The notes under the pieces: model-generated
Database searches by the model: none
Told to the model about the DNA's origin: nothing
The model's input: only the letters and a program-made list of their open reading frames with translations
Shown here: in pieces, positions 3,974-37,922 of the stretch
Layout: every line of letters begins with the position of its first letter
Numbering within the stretch: the first letter of the stretch is position 1
Source of the DNA: Promethearchaeota archaeon
Lineage (GTDB): Archaea; Asgardarchaeota; Lokiarchaeia; Sigyniarchaeales; SOKP01
Length of the DNA: 58,180 bases
Direction: 5' to 3'
Assembly: GCA_011364925.1 (NCBI GenBank)
Contig: RDOA01000019.1
Location: forward strand, 1-58,180
Program-made: the position numbers and the translations under genes

Positions 3974-5524
3974 TTAATTTGTTTTAATTTGTTTCATCGC
4001 TTTCTGGCGCGAAATACAAGATGAACAATTACCACATGGTTCGTCATAATCCGCATAACAACTCCAAGTAACATCAATAGGGACATTCAATTCGTAAGCT
4101 AATTTCAATACTTCTTCTTTTGTCTTGTTAGAGAAAGGTATTAAAATCTCAATATTGCGTAAATCTTTATCATGTTTTGAAATTTTTATTAAATTTTCGA
4201 GATTTTGAAAGAAATTTTCTCCTACATCAGAAAATTTTTTTATATCCTCGTGAATGTGGCCCCCTATGATTTTATTACAGCCATACATCTCAGCAAAATA
4301 AGCTCCGACCGAGTAAAAAATTAAGTTTTTGAGGGGTATAAATCCTTCTGGAGCATTTTCAGCGGAGGGAATGGGGAAGCCCTCCATTCTTAAATCTACA
4401 GCGCCCATGATGTAGGACATTGGAACCTCTACCAAAGAAACTTTTGCTAATTCGGCTAGTTTTCTACTGGCTTTTATCTCTTTTTTAGGTCTCCATTTAT
4501 AATTTATAGATAATGCAGTGACCTCGTAACCATTATTTAAAGCCCAAAAAAGGGTCGTTGCTGAGTCTATACCGCCAGACAACATGACAATGACTCTATT
4601 ACTTGGATTCTTAATGGGAGAGCTCATTTTTATTCTTACAGCGTTGTTTATCGCTTCTTCTATCGGGGATATTCTAAAACCTAATGCTTTAGACGCAATT
4701 TTACCGTCGGCAATTATATCGCATTTCATTACATCAACCATTTCTGTACATATCCCAAACTTCGAGGAAGCTGACTCGTATGGAACATACTCATATTTTG
4801 GTGGAGGAATATTCAATCCAATATCCTTGATAGCATTTGTTACTTTTCGAACCAAATCTTTCATATTTAATGTCTCCAAACCGACTAAGTTATAGATTAC
4901 ATTGTCTTTTCCCTTCCCTAACGAAGCGTTCAAGAAAGCTGTCACCGCATCCATAACATAAATCGGCTGCATTGGAACTTCACCCGTTCCAGCAATATAT
5001 ACTTTCCCATCATAGATTTGCTCGATGATATCTGGTATTAACTCGTCATTTGATCCAAGAATATAAGACGGTCGAAAAATTACATAGGAAACATCACTAT
5101 TAATTAAAAGCTGTTCTGCTTTACTTTTTGAATAAAAATAATTATTGTTCGCCCATTCTCTCTCACCGTATTTTTCTACTCCTAGACCAGAAGGATAGAT
5201 AATTCTAGATACTCCCACATTTCTCGCAGCTTCAATGACATTTTTCAATCCTTTTATATTGACCTTTACAAACAGTTCTTTACTTCCGCAGACAATGTTG
5301 GCAAAATGAATAACTGCTTCGCAACCTTGAAATGCGGTCTCTAAATCTTTTACAGTAAAATTTTTAACTAAGAAAACCTCAACATTCTTGCTGGTTACAG
5401 ATTCGACAACTTCGCTCCTACGAACAATTGCATTTATCAATAAGTCTCTTTCTAAGGCTCCCTTGATCGTTTGCATTCCAAGATATCCATTTGCACCCGT
5501 TATTGCGATTTTTTGTTTTAACAT
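3974..5524 (-). CDS. Fusion of SDR-type NAD-dependent epimerase and QueC-like 7-cyano-7-deazaguanine synthase
   Basis: A 516-residue single frame with two domains. Residues 1 to about 300 form an extended SDR: GANGYLG nucleotide-binding loop at 10-16, a conserved YxxxK (YSKSK), and a sugar-nucleotide epimerase-like second half. From about 309 to 516 is a QueC-like PP-loop domain with SGGIDS near residue 316, and the QueC-type zinc site C489-x7-C497-x2-C500-x2-C503 in WSCYADYDEPCGNCSSC. QueC makes preQ0 from 7-carboxy-7-deazaguanine, the precursor of archaeosine in archaeal tRNA. The QueD gene lies divergently 138 bases away, which supports a 7-deazaguanine role. The SDR half is unexpected; a linker (KMSSPIKNPSNRV) joins the two parts without a stop. 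It could be a true fusion enzyme or a two-function polypeptide. Confidence 0.8.
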   Translation of the reverse strand: MLKQKIAITGANGYLGMQTIKGALERDLLINAIVRRSEVVESVTSKNVEVFLVKNFTVKDLETAFQGCEAVIHFANIVCGSKELFVKVNIKGLKNVIEAARNVGVSRIIYPSGLGVEKYGEREWANNNYFYSKSKAEQLLINSDVSYVIFRPSYILGSNDELIPDIIEQIYDGKVYIAGTGEVPMQPIYVMDAVTAFLNASLGKGKDNVIYNLVGLETLNMKDLVRKVTNAIKDIGLNIPPPKYEYVPYESASSKFGICTEMVDVMKCDIIADGKIASKALGFRISPIEEAINNAVRIKMSSPIKNPSNRVIVMLSGGIDSATTLFWALNNGYEVTALSINYKWRPKKEIKASRKLAELAKVSLVEVPMSYIMGAVDLRMEGFPIPSAENAPEGFIPLKNLIFYSVGAYFAEMYGCNKIIGGHIHEDIKKFSDVGENFFQNLENLIKISKHDKDLRNIEILIPFSNKTKEEVLKLAYELNVPIDVTWSCYADYDEPCGNCSSCISRQKAMKQIKTN

Positions 5525-5662: not shown

Positions 5663-6127
5663 ATGAGTTATAAAGTTATTGTTAAGGAAACACAAATAAA
5701 GTTTAGTGCTTCCCACTTTTTAAAAGAACCTTCTCAATGCTCAAAACTTCATGGTCATAATTACTATGTATCCGTTGAATTAGAAGCTCCTTTAGACGAG
5801 AATTATATCGTTGTAGATTTTATAGAGTTAAAAGAAAAAGTGAAATCTATAGCGGAACCTTTAGATCATCACGTTTTAATTCCTGAGTTATCTAATGATC
5901 TTACAATTTCAGAAACTTCAGAATCAATTGAAATTATAACTAACTCTAATAAGCGCTATGTTTTTCCCAAAATGGATGTGACACTATTACTTTTACCAGC
6001 AACCACTAGTGAGCTTCTAGCTAAATTTTTTCACGATAAATTAAAGGAGATATATCCACATAAGAGAATTACAGTAAAACTAGGAGAAACAAAAAGTTCT
6101 ATTGCCGTTTATCGAGGTGAAATGTAA
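5663..6127 (+). CDS. queD: 6-carboxy-5,6,7,8-tetrahydropterin synthase (QueD/PTPS family)
   Basis: A 154-residue T-fold protein. The zinc histidines are H18 (FSASHF), H30 and H32 (KLHGHNY), and C26 sits at the QueD catalytic cysteine position (C-x3-HGH). LDHHVLI near residue 72 supplies the partner histidine. QueD converts dihydroneopterin triphosphate to 6-carboxytetrahydropterin, the first committed step to preQ0 and archaeosine. The C-terminal KLGETKSS carries the conserved glutamate that anchors the pterin. It is divergent from the SDR-QueC fusion gene, and the two probably share the intergenic promoter region. QueE is not in this window. A pterin-only (PTPS-III) role is possible, but the QueC neighbour favours QueD. 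Confidence 0.88.
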   Translation: MSYKVIVKETQIKFSASHFLKEPSQCSKLHGHNYYVSVELEAPLDENYIVVDFIELKEKVKSIAEPLDHHVLIPELSNDLTISETSESIEIITNSNKRYVFPKMDVTLLLLPATTSELLAKFFHDKLKEIYPHKRITVKLGETKSSIAVYRGEM

Positions 6128-6136
6128 TAATCAGGT

Positions 6137-7240
6137 CTATTTTTCAATGATGGTCTCTTTAATTTTTGTACCGAAATGAGTTGCACCGGGACCGAGATAA
6201 ACAAGAACTTCATCCCCGATCTTTACGTCGACAATAGAAATTGGAACACCCTCAGAACTAACTAATCGAATCGTTTCTGCGTTTTGTCCAATATAATTGA
6301 TTTTCGTCTTTCCGACTTGATCCTTTATTTCTAATTCCAGCCGTATCATAGGACGCGTTTCTATTTTAACCCTGCCTACTGTAACGATTTTCCCCTCTCC
6401 GTTGGCATTTACCACAAGAACGCGATCTCCCCCCTTTAACTCACTTAGATATTTCGTTTCATACAATTTGTCTTCTTTATCGCTTGGAACTAAAATGTAT
6501 GCTGATACATCCCCTGCGTTTACTCTAAATGGTCTTGAGGAAACAAACTGAGTTTCGAAAACCTCCGCATGCACTAAAGTAAAACCTTTCGCAGTGCTAC
6601 CAACAAGCATTCCTTCTCCAGGTTTTAAAAGCGAAGTAGTATCAACACACACTCGCTCACTTTCAGGGATATTCTGAACATTGATGACTTTTGCTTTAGT
6701 TAATTCAATATTGTAGCCATTTACTATTAATTTTTTCAGTTCTAATATCTCATCTACATTGTGTGGTGTAATTAAGATTCCATCCGTACCAATTTCGAGA
6801 GTCTTTAGCATTAATTCTGCTTCTGTTAGGTTCTCAACTGAAGCTATCAGTTCTGTATCGCTAGTCTGCAATTGAGCGATAAGGTTTTCAAAAGGTATTA
6901 TCTTCCAATCGCTAGCTGATACTATAATAAAATCAATTTCATTAAATTTTGCTAACTCCATAACTTTTTGTTCGTCTGCCTTAACTTTCAACTCTAATTG
7001 AATCCCTCTGTTAACTTCTAATTTCTTACTGCTTTTAAGATGTTCAAGGTTGTCAAATACTAAGTTTTTAACGGGTAAAACTGTATCTCTGCTAAAAGTA
7101 GTAACACGTTCAATTTGGTTCAATTCTGAATAAGTCTCTTTAGAAACCATGAAATTAAGAAGATTCATGTTGAAAGCTTCCTGCATTAAAGCCTTAAAAT
7201 TATCCGTTTTTCTCTCGAAATTTAAAATTATCTTCTTCAT
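6137..7240 (-). CDS. 3-dehydroquinate synthase II (archaeal type)
   Basis: A 367-residue protein, close to the usual length of archaeal DHQS II. Diagnostic blocks are LKTLEIGTDGILI, VCVDTTSLLKPGEGMLVGST, LVHAEVFETQFVSSRPFRVNAG and the C-terminal GDEVLVYLGPGATHFG. The enzyme deaminates and cyclises 2-amino-3,7-dideoxy-D-threo-hept-6-ulosonate, using NAD, to 3-dehydroquinate. It belongs to the archaeal aromatic amino acid route that starts from aspartate semialdehyde and 6-deoxy-5-ketofructose phosphate. It is convergent with queD with 9 bases between stop codons. No other shikimate gene is in the window. The start is an ATG at 7238-7240. Confidence 0.93.
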   Translation of the reverse strand: MKKIILNFERKTDNFKALMQEAFNMNLLNFMVSKETYSELNQIERVTTFSRDTVLPVKNLVFDNLEHLKSSKKLEVNRGIQLELKVKADEQKVMELAKFNEIDFIIVSASDWKIIPFENLIAQLQTSDTELIASVENLTEAELMLKTLEIGTDGILITPHNVDEILELKKLIVNGYNIELTKAKVINVQNIPESERVCVDTTSLLKPGEGMLVGSTAKGFTLVHAEVFETQFVSSRPFRVNAGDVSAYILVPSDKEDKLYETKYLSELKGGDRVLVVNANGEGKIVTVGRVKIETRPMIRLELEIKDQVGKTKINYIGQNAETIRLVSSEGVPISIVDVKIGDEVLVYLGPGATHFGTKIKETIIEK

Positions 7241-7379: not shown

Positions 7380-8039
7380 GTGTGTGCTAAACTAAAAGGG
7401 AAACTTTTTCCCAGAAAAAGCAAAGAAAAAGAAGAGCTCGTGATTAAAGCTAAAGCTCACATAAGAAAAATAGCATTAGCAAATAAAACTTATAACAAAA
7501 GAGCAGAGATAGCAAGAAAGAACGCAAAAATAGCGTTAAAGAGAGGGGAAAGAAATAGAGCTAAAAACTATCTTATTCAACATAAACAATATCAGATGAA
7601 GGTGGATCGCGCAAACAATATTCGAGCCAAGATTGAACGCCAGATCGAAGCGATTGAGGAAGGACAGATGATTTCTATGACTGGAGACTTAATGGGAGGG
7701 ATTAGAGACGAGTTAAAAACTATTGCCGGTAGCGCAGCGCCTGAAAAAGTAGCAGAGATTGCGGAAGATTCTGAACAATATGTGTCAGAGATTGAAGAGT
7801 CAGCTGAAATCCTTGCCGGAGATCCCGAAATTGACCTAGCAATTGATGTTACTGACGAACTCAACCAACTTGAGACGGAGATGCTTTTAGAACAAGGTGG
7901 GCAAATGCCAGAAGTACCAGATGAAGAGCTTTCATATATTTCAGAATTCGATGAGATAGAAGAAGAACCCGAAATACGGACTAAAGCTAAGCTAGAAGAC
8001 GAAATAGACAAATTAAGAAAAGAGTTAGAAGGAAGCTAA
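7380..8039 (+). CDS. ESCRT-III protein of the Snf7 family (CHMP4/6/7-like class)
   Basis: A 219-residue, largely helical protein with a basic N-terminal half and an acidic C-terminal half, as in Snf7 proteins. The alpha1-alpha2 hairpin includes ARKNAKIALKRGERNRAKNY and QHKQYQMKVDRANNIRAKIE. Helices 3-4 include MGGIRDELKTIAG and PEKVAEIAEDSEQYVSEIEE, the site of the conserved DKVDxLMxxI-type segment of CHMPs. Residues 176-184 (MPEVPDEEL) closely resemble the MIM2 motif by which CHMP6 binds the Vps4 MIT domain (LPEVPSEPL). The C-terminal helix KLEDEIDKLRKEL could be a second, MIM1-like site. ESCRT-III polymers remodel and cut membranes. The GTG start is forced by an upstream stop. The 3' neighbour converges, with 15 bases between the stops. 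Vps4, ESCRT-II and ubiquitin genes are not in this window. Confidence 0.85.
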   Translation: MCAKLKGKLFPRKSKEKEELVIKAKAHIRKIALANKTYNKRAEIARKNAKIALKRGERNRAKNYLIQHKQYQMKVDRANNIRAKIERQIEAIEEGQMISMTGDLMGGIRDELKTIAGSAAPEKVAEIAEDSEQYVSEIEESAEILAGDPEIDLAIDVTDELNQLETEMLLEQGGQMPEVPDEELSYISEFDEIEEEPEIRTKAKLEDEIDKLRKELEGS

Positions 8040-8054
8040 AAAATTATAGCTTTA

Positions 8055-10151
8055 TTAAGTATAATATCTTTTTCTATCAAGCTCATTAGCTGAACCTCTT
8101 AAAAATTCTTCATCTTCTAAATCGGAATTTAGTGCTTCAATATTTTTTTCAATTATATATATTTCTTTTTGCAGGTTCTTAAAGTTCTTAAAATAATCGA
8201 TTTCAGAAATATCTCCAGATTCAAATTTGGAGTCTAAAGCTTTTAAAGTTTCTTCAAGGCTATATTTCTCTTTTTCTAAGTTAAACATCTTTTTTTCTCT
8301 TGATTTATCGTACTTCTTCGAATTGAAGCTAGAGTTTTCATTTGAATGATAAGGATCAGAATTACGATTAAATAAATCTGAGAGATGGTTTCGGGAGTAT
8401 TCTTGATATTTGGGGATTTTTCTAGAGTTTCCATTAGGACTATAATCAGCTGGATTGTTAAGAAAATCATTAAAGTTATTTAGTCCGTTTCTAGAAGGGA
8501 AGGATTGCTCGTATCTTTGTAGCTGTTCTAACTTTCTCATCAGTAAGTTTTTTTGATCTAAGTCAGAAAGGTCATTACCAAACCCTCTGCCGTATTGTTT
8601 AGGCTCATAGTTTTGTATTCTGTTAGTGTCGTAGAAGTTTTGTAAGAAAAACTCATTTTGATTATAGTTGGGAGGTAAATACTTACGCATTGCGTGCCCA
8701 AAGTAATTTAAGTCCTCGGGAGTTTGTATTTGGCTCATCCTCTGATTAGGAGGCTTAAGATTATTTTGATAAAGCATTTGATTATCGGGCATGTTTTGGT
8801 AGAGCCCATATGGATTCTTGTTGTTGTAGGGATTAATAACTTGGTTCTGAGGGAAATAAGGACCCTTATTCGATATTATATTAGGGTTTTGATTAAACAA
8901 AGTTGACGCTATGTTATATTCAGACATTTTTTTGTTTGAATTGACATTATTGTATTGACACTTCAAACTAAAGAACGAATTTATTGCTTCTTCAATATAG
9001 TTGGAAATATCACCTAAGTCAACTTCGATATTATATAACTTTTTAGCCGCTAACTTGTCGTAAATAACAGTTTCATCAAAGCATCGAGCAAGTAAGAGAT
9101 AGTCTAACACCCTTGAAATAGAATTTGGGGGAAGCGTAAATTCATATCTCCCATAAGGAAATTCAATATAGAGTTTCTTGAATATTTTCCCTCTTATTTG
9201 AACTTTAGTTAAATCCTTTACAGGAGCTTTAAATATACCGTCTTTTTTCCTCCTTCGCTTTCCATGTTCACGAACAAAAGATAAATCGAAATTGGTTATA
9301 AAGAGGATGCCTTTATTCTTCTTGTATTTATCCTCCGTATTAAGTCCGTTAGCCAATTTAGCGTATATTGCGTAAACTGGCTTTTCCTCCTCTGCCAAGT
9401 TGAGGAATTTAATATAATTCTTGAAGTAAAAAGTGATTTTATCGATGAACACTAAATTTTTTGAAATATTTACAATACTAGTGTTTATGGTATTCACATT
9501 ATTCTTAATAAAATCAATTATTGAAGTATAGCTTCGATTTAGATTTTCAAGTATGTCTTCAATGATTCGAATATTAGAATTCTGTTGCATGTAGATATCG
9601 AAAAAATATTCTTTATTAATTGATAAATGCTGGATAAAATTGCGAATCTTCTCTATCAGATTTTCTTTTGCGTATATAAACAGTTTAAAGAGCGCTAGTA
9701 AATCCAATTCCATAGTAGGATAATGATAACATTTAACGGGTGGAGCTCTTGCATCTAGGATTTTATTTTTTAATGAGTAAAGTGAATTTAATAGATCTCT
9801 AAGTGGATCTATAAACGAACGAGAATTTTTAATTAGTTCCATGAAATTTTTTTCAAGATCTTCTTTCTTTTCATAGATATTTATTATTTGATGAGAATGA
9901 CACTTTGGGCAAGACTTTAAGAGTTGGTTGGTTCTAACTATATTATCCGTTCCACAGTCTTTACAAGTTTTTTTATTGCCTGATTCAGGAACGATGATAT
10001 TTTTTGAATTACATTCTTGACATATATAAGTATCAATTTTTTCCTCATGCAAACAATCGGAACAACAACTAACACCACAATCTTCACAATAATAAGCTAA
10101 CTTTACATTTCTTTGACAGAAACGGCAGATTTGGAATTGTTGCTCCAACAT
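8055..10151 (-). CDS. Multidomain protein: cross-brace zinc finger, helices, GRAM/PH-like domain, N/Q/P/Y-rich region, C-terminal helical hairpin
   Basis: A 698-residue protein without a known name. Residues 9-47 hold paired cysteines (C9-x2-C12, C22-x2-C25, C30-x2-C33, C44-x2-C47) like a B-box or related cross-brace finger. A CxxC...CxxC zinc ribbon follows near 62-82. Helical or coiled-coil sequence fills about 90-270. Residues 285-370 look like a GRAM/PH fold: a KGILFITNFDLSF strand pair, a basic loop GKRRRKK, then VKDLTKVQIRG, KKLYIEFPYGRYEF and a closing helix. Residues 400-630 are rich in Asn, Gln, Pro and Tyr and are probably disordered. The end (LEETLKALDSKFESGDISE onwards) is a helical hairpin common in Asgard proteins. 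The domain set suggests a membrane- or partner-binding adaptor. Its gene converges on the ESCRT-III gene. Confidence 0.7.
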   Translation of the reverse strand: MLEQQFQICRFCQRNVKLAYYCEDCGVSCCSDCLHEEKIDTYICQECNSKNIIVPESGNKKTCKDCGTDNIVRTNQLLKSCPKCHSHQIINIYEKKEDLEKNFMELIKNSRSFIDPLRDLLNSLYSLKNKILDARAPPVKCYHYPTMELDLLALFKLFIYAKENLIEKIRNFIQHLSINKEYFFDIYMQQNSNIRIIEDILENLNRSYTSIIDFIKNNVNTINTSIVNISKNLVFIDKITFYFKNYIKFLNLAEEEKPVYAIYAKLANGLNTEDKYKKNKGILFITNFDLSFVREHGKRRRKKDGIFKAPVKDLTKVQIRGKIFKKLYIEFPYGRYEFTLPPNSISRVLDYLLLARCFDETVIYDKLAAKKLYNIEVDLGDISNYIEEAINSFFSLKCQYNNVNSNKKMSEYNIASTLFNQNPNIISNKGPYFPQNQVINPYNNKNPYGLYQNMPDNQMLYQNNLKPPNQRMSQIQTPEDLNYFGHAMRKYLPPNYNQNEFFLQNFYDTNRIQNYEPKQYGRGFGNDLSDLDQKNLLMRKLEQLQRYEQSFPSRNGLNNFNDFLNNPADYSPNGNSRKIPKYQEYSRNHLSDLFNRNSDPYHSNENSSFNSKKYDKSREKKMFNLEKEKYSLEETLKALDSKFESGDISEIDYFKNFKNLQKEIYIIEKNIEALNSDLEDEEFLRGSANELDRKRYYT

Positions 10152-10770: not shown

Positions 10771-12150
10771 ATGAAGGTTGCGTTTAGTAGAATAAAACTT
10801 ACACCAAAGGATTATATTGGTAAGCCTATGGCAGGGTATTCTCGCAAAGATCCTTGTTTAGGGAAATTGGACGATATTTATGCGAATGGTGTGTTAATCA
10901 ATCACAATGATAAAAACACAAATTTACTCTTAATTTCAGTTGATATTCTGAAATTACCACTATCAATAGTAGAGTATATAAAAAAGAAGCTTACATCGAA
11001 GTATGAAATTTTAAATCCGGATGCAATAGTAATACACGCAACACATACCCATTCTTCGTTTGATCTCACAGGTGAATTCTATTATCTGGGAGGAATGTTG
11101 GCATTCTTTAAAGGTGTTATGTTTGCTGATAATAAAAACGACCGATTTATCGTTTGGATGGTCGATAGAATAATAAAAATGGTTGCGAAATTATTTAAAG
11201 ATTTACAGCCTTGTAAAATTGCTATAAAGAAAAAGAGCTATAATCCAAATTTAGTACTTAATCGAAGGTGGCCTAAGAGAAAGGTTTTACCAGATTTAGG
11301 AGTTATAGCTTTTAAACAATTAGATAACGATACTTTAATTGGTCTGATAATCAATTACTCGTGCCATCCTACCACATTATCTTTCGCGAATAACAAATTA
11401 TCTGCCGATTTTCCAGGTCGAGTGATTGCAAGAATTGACGATTTAACTAACAATAAAGTTAAATCCATTTATATAAATGGACCCTCCGGCGATTTAAACC
11501 CTATAACAACTTCAGGCGTCGATTTAGAGAAAATTGACAAAGATAAAACCTTAACCTATGATCAGCGAGGAACATACGAGCACACGAAAAAAATTGGGCA
11601 TATCATCGCGGAAGAAGCTTTAAAATTTGCTCGTTCTATAGCTGAATCCGAATATTTTAACACCATGGATATCGATGTGTATGCAAGAAGACTTTTAATT
11701 CCTCAAAAAGACGCAGTCTACCTCTCAAAGGTTTTCTTATCAAATAAGGTAAAATGGTTGATAAAAAAGTATTTCTTGTTTAAAGTTGCTAAGTTTGACC
11801 AAAAATACGTTACTTTTCCCTTCTTTATGGAGGAGCGTAGGCACCTACAAAAATATGGAAAAACCATTGTCCAATTTATAAAACTTACTGCATCTAACGA
11901 CGATTCATATGGGATAATTACAATACCAGGCGAATTATTTGAAGAGATTGGAAAAAGATTGATTCGAACAACCCCTACTTTAGAGAAAAATACATTCATC
12001 TTTCAAAATTCTCAAGACTGGATAGGATATTTATTTCCTTTAGAAACTTACATTACTGAAGGAGGTTATGAACCCTTTATGTGTTATAGTCCTCTGTGCG
12101 GTGCTTATATTGAAAATGGTACAAAAAAGCTCTTACATAAAATAAAGTAA
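10771..12150 (+). CDS. Neutral/alkaline ceramidase-like amidohydrolase (N-terminal domain only)
   Basis: A 459-residue protein that matches the metal-binding core of neutral ceramidases: HATHTHSS (H89, H92, H94), NYSCHPTTL (H199), DFPG near 213-216 and NGPSGDLNP near 236-244. The family hydrolyses the amide bond of ceramide using zinc and a serine nucleophile in a GDxSPN motif. Here that motif reads GDLNP, so the usual serine is replaced. There is no signal peptide and no C-terminal Ig-like domain, so it is shorter than secreted ceramidases. Archaeal lipids contain no ceramide, so another amide or ester, perhaps on a sugar or lipid conjugate, may be the substrate. It is divergent from the eL33 gene and no operon partner is evident. 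Confidence 0.65.
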   Translation: MKVAFSRIKLTPKDYIGKPMAGYSRKDPCLGKLDDIYANGVLINHNDKNTNLLLISVDILKLPLSIVEYIKKKLTSKYEILNPDAIVIHATHTHSSFDLTGEFYYLGGMLAFFKGVMFADNKNDRFIVWMVDRIIKMVAKLFKDLQPCKIAIKKKSYNPNLVLNRRWPKRKVLPDLGVIAFKQLDNDTLIGLIINYSCHPTTLSFANNKLSADFPGRVIARIDDLTNNKVKSIYINGPSGDLNPITTSGVDLEKIDKDKTLTYDQRGTYEHTKKIGHIIAEEALKFARSIAESEYFNTMDIDVYARRLLIPQKDAVYLSKVFLSNKVKWLIKKYFLFKVAKFDQKYVTFPFFMEERRHLQKYGKTIVQFIKLTASNDDSYGIITIPGELFEEIGKRLIRTTPTLEKNTFIFQNSQDWIGYLFPLETYITEGGYEPFMCYSPLCGAYIENGTKKLLHKIK

Positions 12151-37394: not shown

Positions 37395-37922
37395 TTACTC
37401 CTCAACCGGTATTTCAACCAAACTAATGACATCATACCCTTCCAATTTTTCACGCCCATGGAGGCTACCAGTGAGTTCTATAATAAATGCGACTCCAGCA
37501 ACTACGCCTCCAGCCTTTTCTATTAGATTACATGCAGCCTTAGCTGTTCCTCCCGTCGCTAGTAAGTCATCAAATATTAATACGTTGTCACCCTTCTTTA
37601 TCGCGTCAGTATGAATTTCTATCTTATCCGTTCCATATTCTAATTCATATTCTTCAGTGATTGTATCTGCAGGTAATTTACCTGGTTTTCGAATCAGTAC
37701 AAAACCCGCTCCTAACTGATAAGCTATAACACCACCCCAAACGTATCCTCTAGCTTCAATAGCAGCAACTTTCTCTATACCTTTCTTTTTATATTTTTTT
37801 ATTATAAGATCACAGGATTCTTTGAATGCTGTTGAATTTTTCGCTAAAGTTGTTATATCCTTAAATTGAATACCAGGTTTTGGCCAATCAGGCACATTCC
37901 TTATTTCTTTCAGTAAATCCAT
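37395..37922 (-). CDS. apt: Adenine phosphoribosyltransferase
   Basis: A 175-residue protein of typical APRT length. VPDWPKPGIQFKDIT at the N-terminus, AAIEARGYVWGGVIAYQLGA, RKPGKLP and the PRPP loop VLIFDDLLATGGT are classic. It converts adenine and PRPP to AMP. AAGGAG (complement of 37929-37934) lies six bases before the ATG. The gene should act with the MTA phosphorylases at 31167 and 32023, which release adenine. It is upstream of gcvT on the same strand but T-tracts lie between them, so it is probably a separate unit. Confidence 0.92.
   Translation of the reverse strand: MDLLKEIRNVPDWPKPGIQFKDITTLAKNSTAFKESCDLIIKKYKKKGIEKVAAIEARGYVWGGVIAYQLGAGFVLIRKPGKLPADTITEEYELEYGTDKIEIHTDAIKKGDNVLIFDDLLATGGTAKAACNLIEKAGGVVAGVAFIIELTGSLHGREKLEGYDVISLVEIPVEE

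Follow-up and report, generated by a model that had tools for sequence, protein, structure and literature searches.

ESCRT-III tails and Vps4 recruitment in archaea

In Sulfolobus, the CdvB-CdvC structure 2W2U, as presented in PMC5840170, illustrates MIM2-MIT recruitment in an archaeon. For the Asgard archaea, Lu et al. 2020 (PMC7240154) described MIM2-like motifs in Vps20/32/60 and ITC measurements in which the Asgard Vps4 MIT domain binds Vps20/32/60, the Lokiarchaeum orthologue included. Most of the Asgard genomes surveyed in PMC8970359 have MIM2, together with MIM1 fragments, in their CdvBa2 class, and yeast two-hybrid contacts were reported between Vps4 and ESCRT-III and between Vps25 and ESCRT-IIIB (PMC9192718). 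The Loki orthologue of the protein considered here forms filaments and helical tubes and remodels membranes (PMC11791191). A preliminary description of the present locus had proposed its tail motif as a sign that the MIM2 mode predates eukaryotes. From Sulfolobus 2W2U and from Lu et al., MIM2-type Vps4 docking is already known, and this claim to novelty does not stand. Arguments for an origin of ESCRT-III/Vps4 recycling before the eukaryotes already draw on this system, to which the locus contributes one further orthologue.

The analysed stretch of DNA, called the window below, is 58,180 nucleotides long. The Lokiarchaeum GC14_75 CHMP4-7/ESCRT-IIIB protein (KKK44605.1; PDB 9FN1) is an orthologue of the window protein, approximately 72% identical, with the same C-terminal helix. 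Its tail reads MPDAP where the window protein has MPEVP, and the valine at the second hydrophobic position, instead of alanine, brings the window protein slightly closer to CHMP6. The human CHMP6 MIM2 (2K3W, with the VPS4A MIT domain) and the window protein have the PEVP core and the next leucine in common, but CHMP6 LPEVPSEPLP possesses two extra prolines, the third and fourth of the MIM2 consensus, which are replaced by E183 and S185 in the window protein. Sulfolobus CdvB (2W2U) resembles the window protein in being an archaeal ESCRT-III with a proline-rich MIM2 in its tail, which in CdvB docks on the Vps4 MIT domain. It differs by a winged-helix extension and belongs to another ESCRT-III subfamily.

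Identity and class of the ESCRT-III gene

The gene and the features of its product are located as follows:
7380..8039, + strand: ESCRT-IIIB (Vps20/32/60, CHMP4-7-like) gene, GTG start, 219 aa, with Snf7 and 9fn1 matches
7419..7814, + strand: ESCRT-III core helices alpha1-alpha4 (residues 14-145), AlphaFold2 helices
7851..7898, + strand: alpha5 helix (residues 158-173), immediately N-terminal of the motif, AlphaFold2 helix
7905..7931, + strand: MIM2-like half motif MPEVPDEEL (residues 176-184) in a disordered linker, conserved prolines, low pLDDT
7983..8030, + strand: MIM1-like amphipathic helix (residues 202-217), LxxEIxxL[RK], AlphaFold2 helix, same pattern in A-type tails

The gene encodes a lineage-standard Lokiarchaeal ESCRT-IIIB subunit (Snf7/CHMP4-7-like), an ordinary member of an already published family. 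The protein matched Pfam Snf7 (PF03357) at 5e-10, with 39.7 bits for a curated cut-off of 27.3, as did 55/55 orthologues; the preliminary assignment to Snf7-like ESCRT-III was correct and its ORF bounds were exact. With phmmer, the match to 9fn1, the Loki CHMP4-7 filament protein, reached E=1e-87. The same structure was the best PDB match of the model in Foldseek (72% identity, E=9e-13), followed in order by CHMP1B/IST1, the Asgard ESCRT-IIIB filament 9ftl and Snf7. AlphaFold2 predicted helices at residues 14-54, 58-118, 121-145, 158-173 and 202-217, and the ESCRT-III helical core fold, alpha1 to alpha5, is present in the model. Residues L164, E165, E167, L169 and L170 of alpha5 were invariant in the alignment of 55 orthologues, which are 51-94% identical to the window protein. 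A tree restricted to Asgard ESCRT-III sequences supported the bipartition between A-type and B-type at 100/99 and placed the window protein in the B-type clade.

A conserved half MIM2 motif in a disordered tail

The motif MPEVPDEEL lies exactly at residues 176-184, where the preliminary description had located it. That description also considered it close to the MIM2 of CHMP6, and made the proposal depend on conservation of the PEVP segment in orthologues and on the segment not being buried. Both expectations were borne out. P177, P180 and G174 did not vary across 55/55 orthologues, including those only 51% identical; residue 176 was always methionine or isoleucine, and residue 179 was valine or isoleucine in 46 sequences, threonine in seven and alanine in two. 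The mean entropy in this alignment was 0.71 bits over residues 176-180 versus 1.47 bits over the linker, residues 181-200. The core motif arose by chance in about 1% of shuffles of the protein, and at the level of sequence the conservation is the stronger support for MPEVP. Residues 175-201 had a pLDDT below 50 in the AlphaFold2 model, and the cryo-EM filament of the orthologue 9FN1 was modelled only over residues 15-172 (PMC11791191). The segment is therefore not buried, being disordered in the model and situated beyond the last modelled residue of 9FN1.

The likeness to CHMP6 held only in part. MPEVP agrees with the MIM2 core PhiPxPhiP, and CHMP6 P171, V173 and P174 correspond to P177, V179 and P180; the third and fourth consensus prolines are absent from 55/55 orthologues. 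The comparison was extended to 114 unique Asgard tails of both ESCRT-III classes (79 B-type and 35 A-type), none of which matched the full consensus PhiPxPhiPxxPPhiP (0/114). The motif is therefore a half or variant MIM2 and not the canonical eukaryotic one. The PhiPxPhiP core, counted with T or A permitted at the second Phi, was present in 72/79 B-type tails versus 1/35 A-type tails. All 51 B-type tails of the window's family possessed it (51/51) and 21/28 elsewhere, while the A-type counts were 0/10 in the family and 1/25 elsewhere. Other Asgard B-type tails have their prolines placed differently, for example LPDVSGLPSTP outside the Lokiarchaeota, so that a motif nearly identical to that of CHMP6 need not have been inherited directly. 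Judging from these tails, the exact PEVP match may be convergent.

The C-terminal helix showed another distribution. The pattern LxxE[IL]xxL[KR] was found in 110/114 unique Asgard tails, of both types, and K202, E208, I209, K211, L212 and E215 were invariant in the 55 orthologues. The strict eukaryotic MIM1 pattern [DE]xxLxxRLxxL[KR] gave 0 matches in the Asgard tails examined; the window protein carries inverted charges at MIM1 positions 1 and 7 (K202, E208). The proline core thus marks the B-type across Asgard archaea, and the terminal helix is common to both types.

A conserved convergent neighbour

The gene facing the ESCRT-IIIB gene has the following features:
8055..10151, - strand: convergent neighbour, 698 aa, Zn ribbons, coiled coil, PH and steadiness box, putative ESCRT-type adaptor from its Znr_PH_CC_SB architecture and linkage
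9900..10127, - strand: zinc-ribbon region (Cys residues 9-84), invariant Cys
9087..9380, - strand: PH-like domain (residues 258-355), from VIA-align
8073..8327, - strand: steadiness-box-like helical hairpin (residues 609-693), Pfam Vps23_core at 620-666

Eleven cysteines (C9, C12, C22, C25, C30, C33, C47, C63, C66, C81 and C84) were invariant in 51 orthologues of the neighbour. The PH-like domain aligned in VIA-align with a Z of 13.7 to the Lam6 PH-like domain and of 11.9 to the EAP45 GLUE domain 2hth. The hairpin is formed in the model by helices 609-644 and 650-693; Vps23_core matched 33/51 orthologues, the window copy staying below the cut-off (E=0.011), and the phmmer match to the yeast Vps23 core 2f66 was weak (E=0.72). 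All elements of the Znr_PH_CC_SB architecture (Zn ribbons, coiled coil, PH and steadiness box) are present. In the passages of Makarova et al. 2024 that deal with it (PMC10936438), Znr_PH_CC_SB is a likely ESCRT-I component; the neighbour resembles this Asgard family (cog.011556) by its Cys pairs, coiled coil, PH and steadiness box, a likeness of architecture and not of sequence membership. No mention of the family adjoining ESCRT-IIIB was found in these passages.

The neighbour was located within 3.6 kb of ESCRT-IIIB in 52/57 named Lokiarchaeota loci. With four loci cut by contig ends left out, 53 of the 57 were informative, and 52/53 of these have the ESCRT-type gene, in disagreement with the preliminary view of a gene isolated from other ESCRT genes. 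As suggested by architecture and linkage, the neighbour probably acts with ESCRT-IIIB as an adaptor.

In the only informative locus devoid of a neighbour match (L164, CP070831.1), an unmatched 832-aa ORF is found in its place. The ESCRT-IIIB and Zn-ribbon/PH/steadiness-box genes are separated, in most of the family's other genera, by a Meth_synt_2-like gene (about 340 aa; L052:8367-9389, - strand, and equivalents), which is not found there in the window's genus. Residues 92-360 of the neighbour, a helical bundle followed by the PH domain, gave Foldseek matches to RhoGEF DH-PH proteins with E about 1e-6. These matches were not read as homology to DH-PH, the long alignments having an rmsd of 5-20 A and the signal coming mainly from the PH domain; the matches probably reflect the PH domain and generic helices.

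The vps4 cluster

Pfam searches with Vps4_C, MIT and Snf7 found neither vps4 nor ESCRT-IIIA in the window's own genome. All MIT-like matches were below the cut-off, the best one on contig C96 in an ORF of 180 aa that has no AAA domain, and the best AAA matches were Cdc48-like. True loss of the cluster was rejected, as the cluster DNA of a congener matches the end of contig C104 and resumes at C60:137. On C104 the match extends to position 7204 of 7220, practically the contig end, and stops within the gene that flanks ESCRT-IIIA. Both genes are therefore missing from the assembly because the cluster falls in the C104-C60 gap. The ESCRT-IIIA/Vps4/ESCRT-II cluster is missing although the genome was scored 100% complete.

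In the congener, the cluster (L062) comprises two ESCRT-II genes, ESCRT-IIIA and a Vps4 gene whose product has a clear MIT domain. This same-genus MIT domain, at L062:9418-9687, matched Pfam at 1.8e-13, VPS4A MIT chains at 5e-6 (2k3w, the CHMP6 complex, being among the matches) and the Sulfolobus 2w2u MIT chain at 1e-3.

A model of Vps4 recruitment and its alternatives

We propose, with a probability of about 85%, that the gene encodes a Lokiarchaeal ESCRT-IIIB whose core drives filament formation and whose tail docks the Vps4 MIT domain for recycling. In this model, by orthology, the core would polymerise into membrane-deforming filaments. The flexible tail would present the half MIM2 just past alpha5 and the MIM1-like helix about 20 residues further on, and its docking on the MIT domain would lead to subunit extraction and recycling, PEVP being presumably seated in the alpha1/alpha3 groove. 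The Zn-ribbon/PH/steadiness-box neighbour would probably serve this pathway upstream, as a membrane adaptor, in view of its architecture and conserved linkage. The conserved and exposed MIM2-like core probably docks on the Vps4 MIT domain: at the equivalent positions of CHMP6, V173D or P171A/P174A disrupts VPS4A binding (PMC11218997). Against the MIM2 reading, just half of the consensus is present, and a similar half motif in S. acidocaldarius CdvB1/2 binds marginally, with a Kd >100 uM (PMC5840170). The C-terminal helix, which is no less conserved, could also carry the Vps4 contact alone. A contact made mainly by helix 202-217, with MPEVP being accessory or serving another MIT or adaptor protein, is unlikely but deserves consideration; it is consistent with the six invariant residues of the helix, with its presence in nearly all Asgard tails of both types, and with a half MIM2 deprived of P3 and P4. 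Yet the invariant prolines amid a variable disordered linker, and the B-type-specific core, point to a separate selected contact, and the charge inversion at positions 1 and 7, together with a strict MIM1 pattern that fits no tail, speaks against this reading as well. The two putative tail contacts allow clean mutants for asking which one recruits Vps4. ESCRT-III tails are known to autoinhibit, and the proline segment, placed between alpha5 and the C-terminal helix, might be a structural hinge or an autoinhibitory element making no MIT contact. We consider this improbable, as the conserved residues are the MIM2 contact residues of CHMP6 and the model puts the segment in disorder.

The preliminary description had also suggested that the gene might be a third ESCRT-III paralogue, or a divergent one, set apart from the ESCRT system and having its own role. 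The gene is indeed located away from vps4 and the ESCRT-II genes, and in this respect differs from the clustered Asgard ESCRT genes. In 34 genomes of the family, the search recovered both types, the B-type as a close orthologue and the A-type as a distant copy, never near each other: the two genes were on different contigs, or 1.47 Mb apart in one single-contig genome, whereas many other Asgard families have their two Snf7 genes side by side. This separation is a family trait and gives no sign of a new paralogue; the same arrangement appears on the published Lokiarchaeum map (Lokiarch_16740/16760 versus 37450-37480, PMC5840170). The window protein is the sole B-type orthologue, in a family with one B-type and one A-type copy per genome. 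Given these copy counts, the Asgard comparison, the B-type clade at 100/99 and the ESCRT-type gene adjoining in nearly all informative loci, a third paralogue was rejected and is hardly credible.

The recycling model can be extended, although the extension taken as a whole is rather unlikely. Asgard tails would be bipartite, with a shared charge-inverted MIM1-like helix to which the B-type adds PhiPxPhiP, and one Vps4 MIT domain would be gripped on both faces; eukaryotic A-type and B-type tails would later have specialised by loss, and Lokiarchaeota ESCRT-IIIB would be nucleated by the linked Zn-ribbon/PH/steadiness-box neighbour and not by partners of the cluster. In eukaryotes, IST1 has both MIM motifs and may grip the MIT domain on both faces.

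Other genes in the window

The 516-aa ORF at 3974-5524 (- strand) combines an NAD(P)-dependent epimerase-like domain (approximately residues 3-228) with a QueC domain (approximately residues 311-513). It adjoins a PTPS/QueD-like gene (5663-6127), and several members of the genus lack both at this place. On the + strand, the 459-aa ORF at 10771-12150 matched the N-terminal domain of neutral/alkaline ceramidase with E=6e-9.
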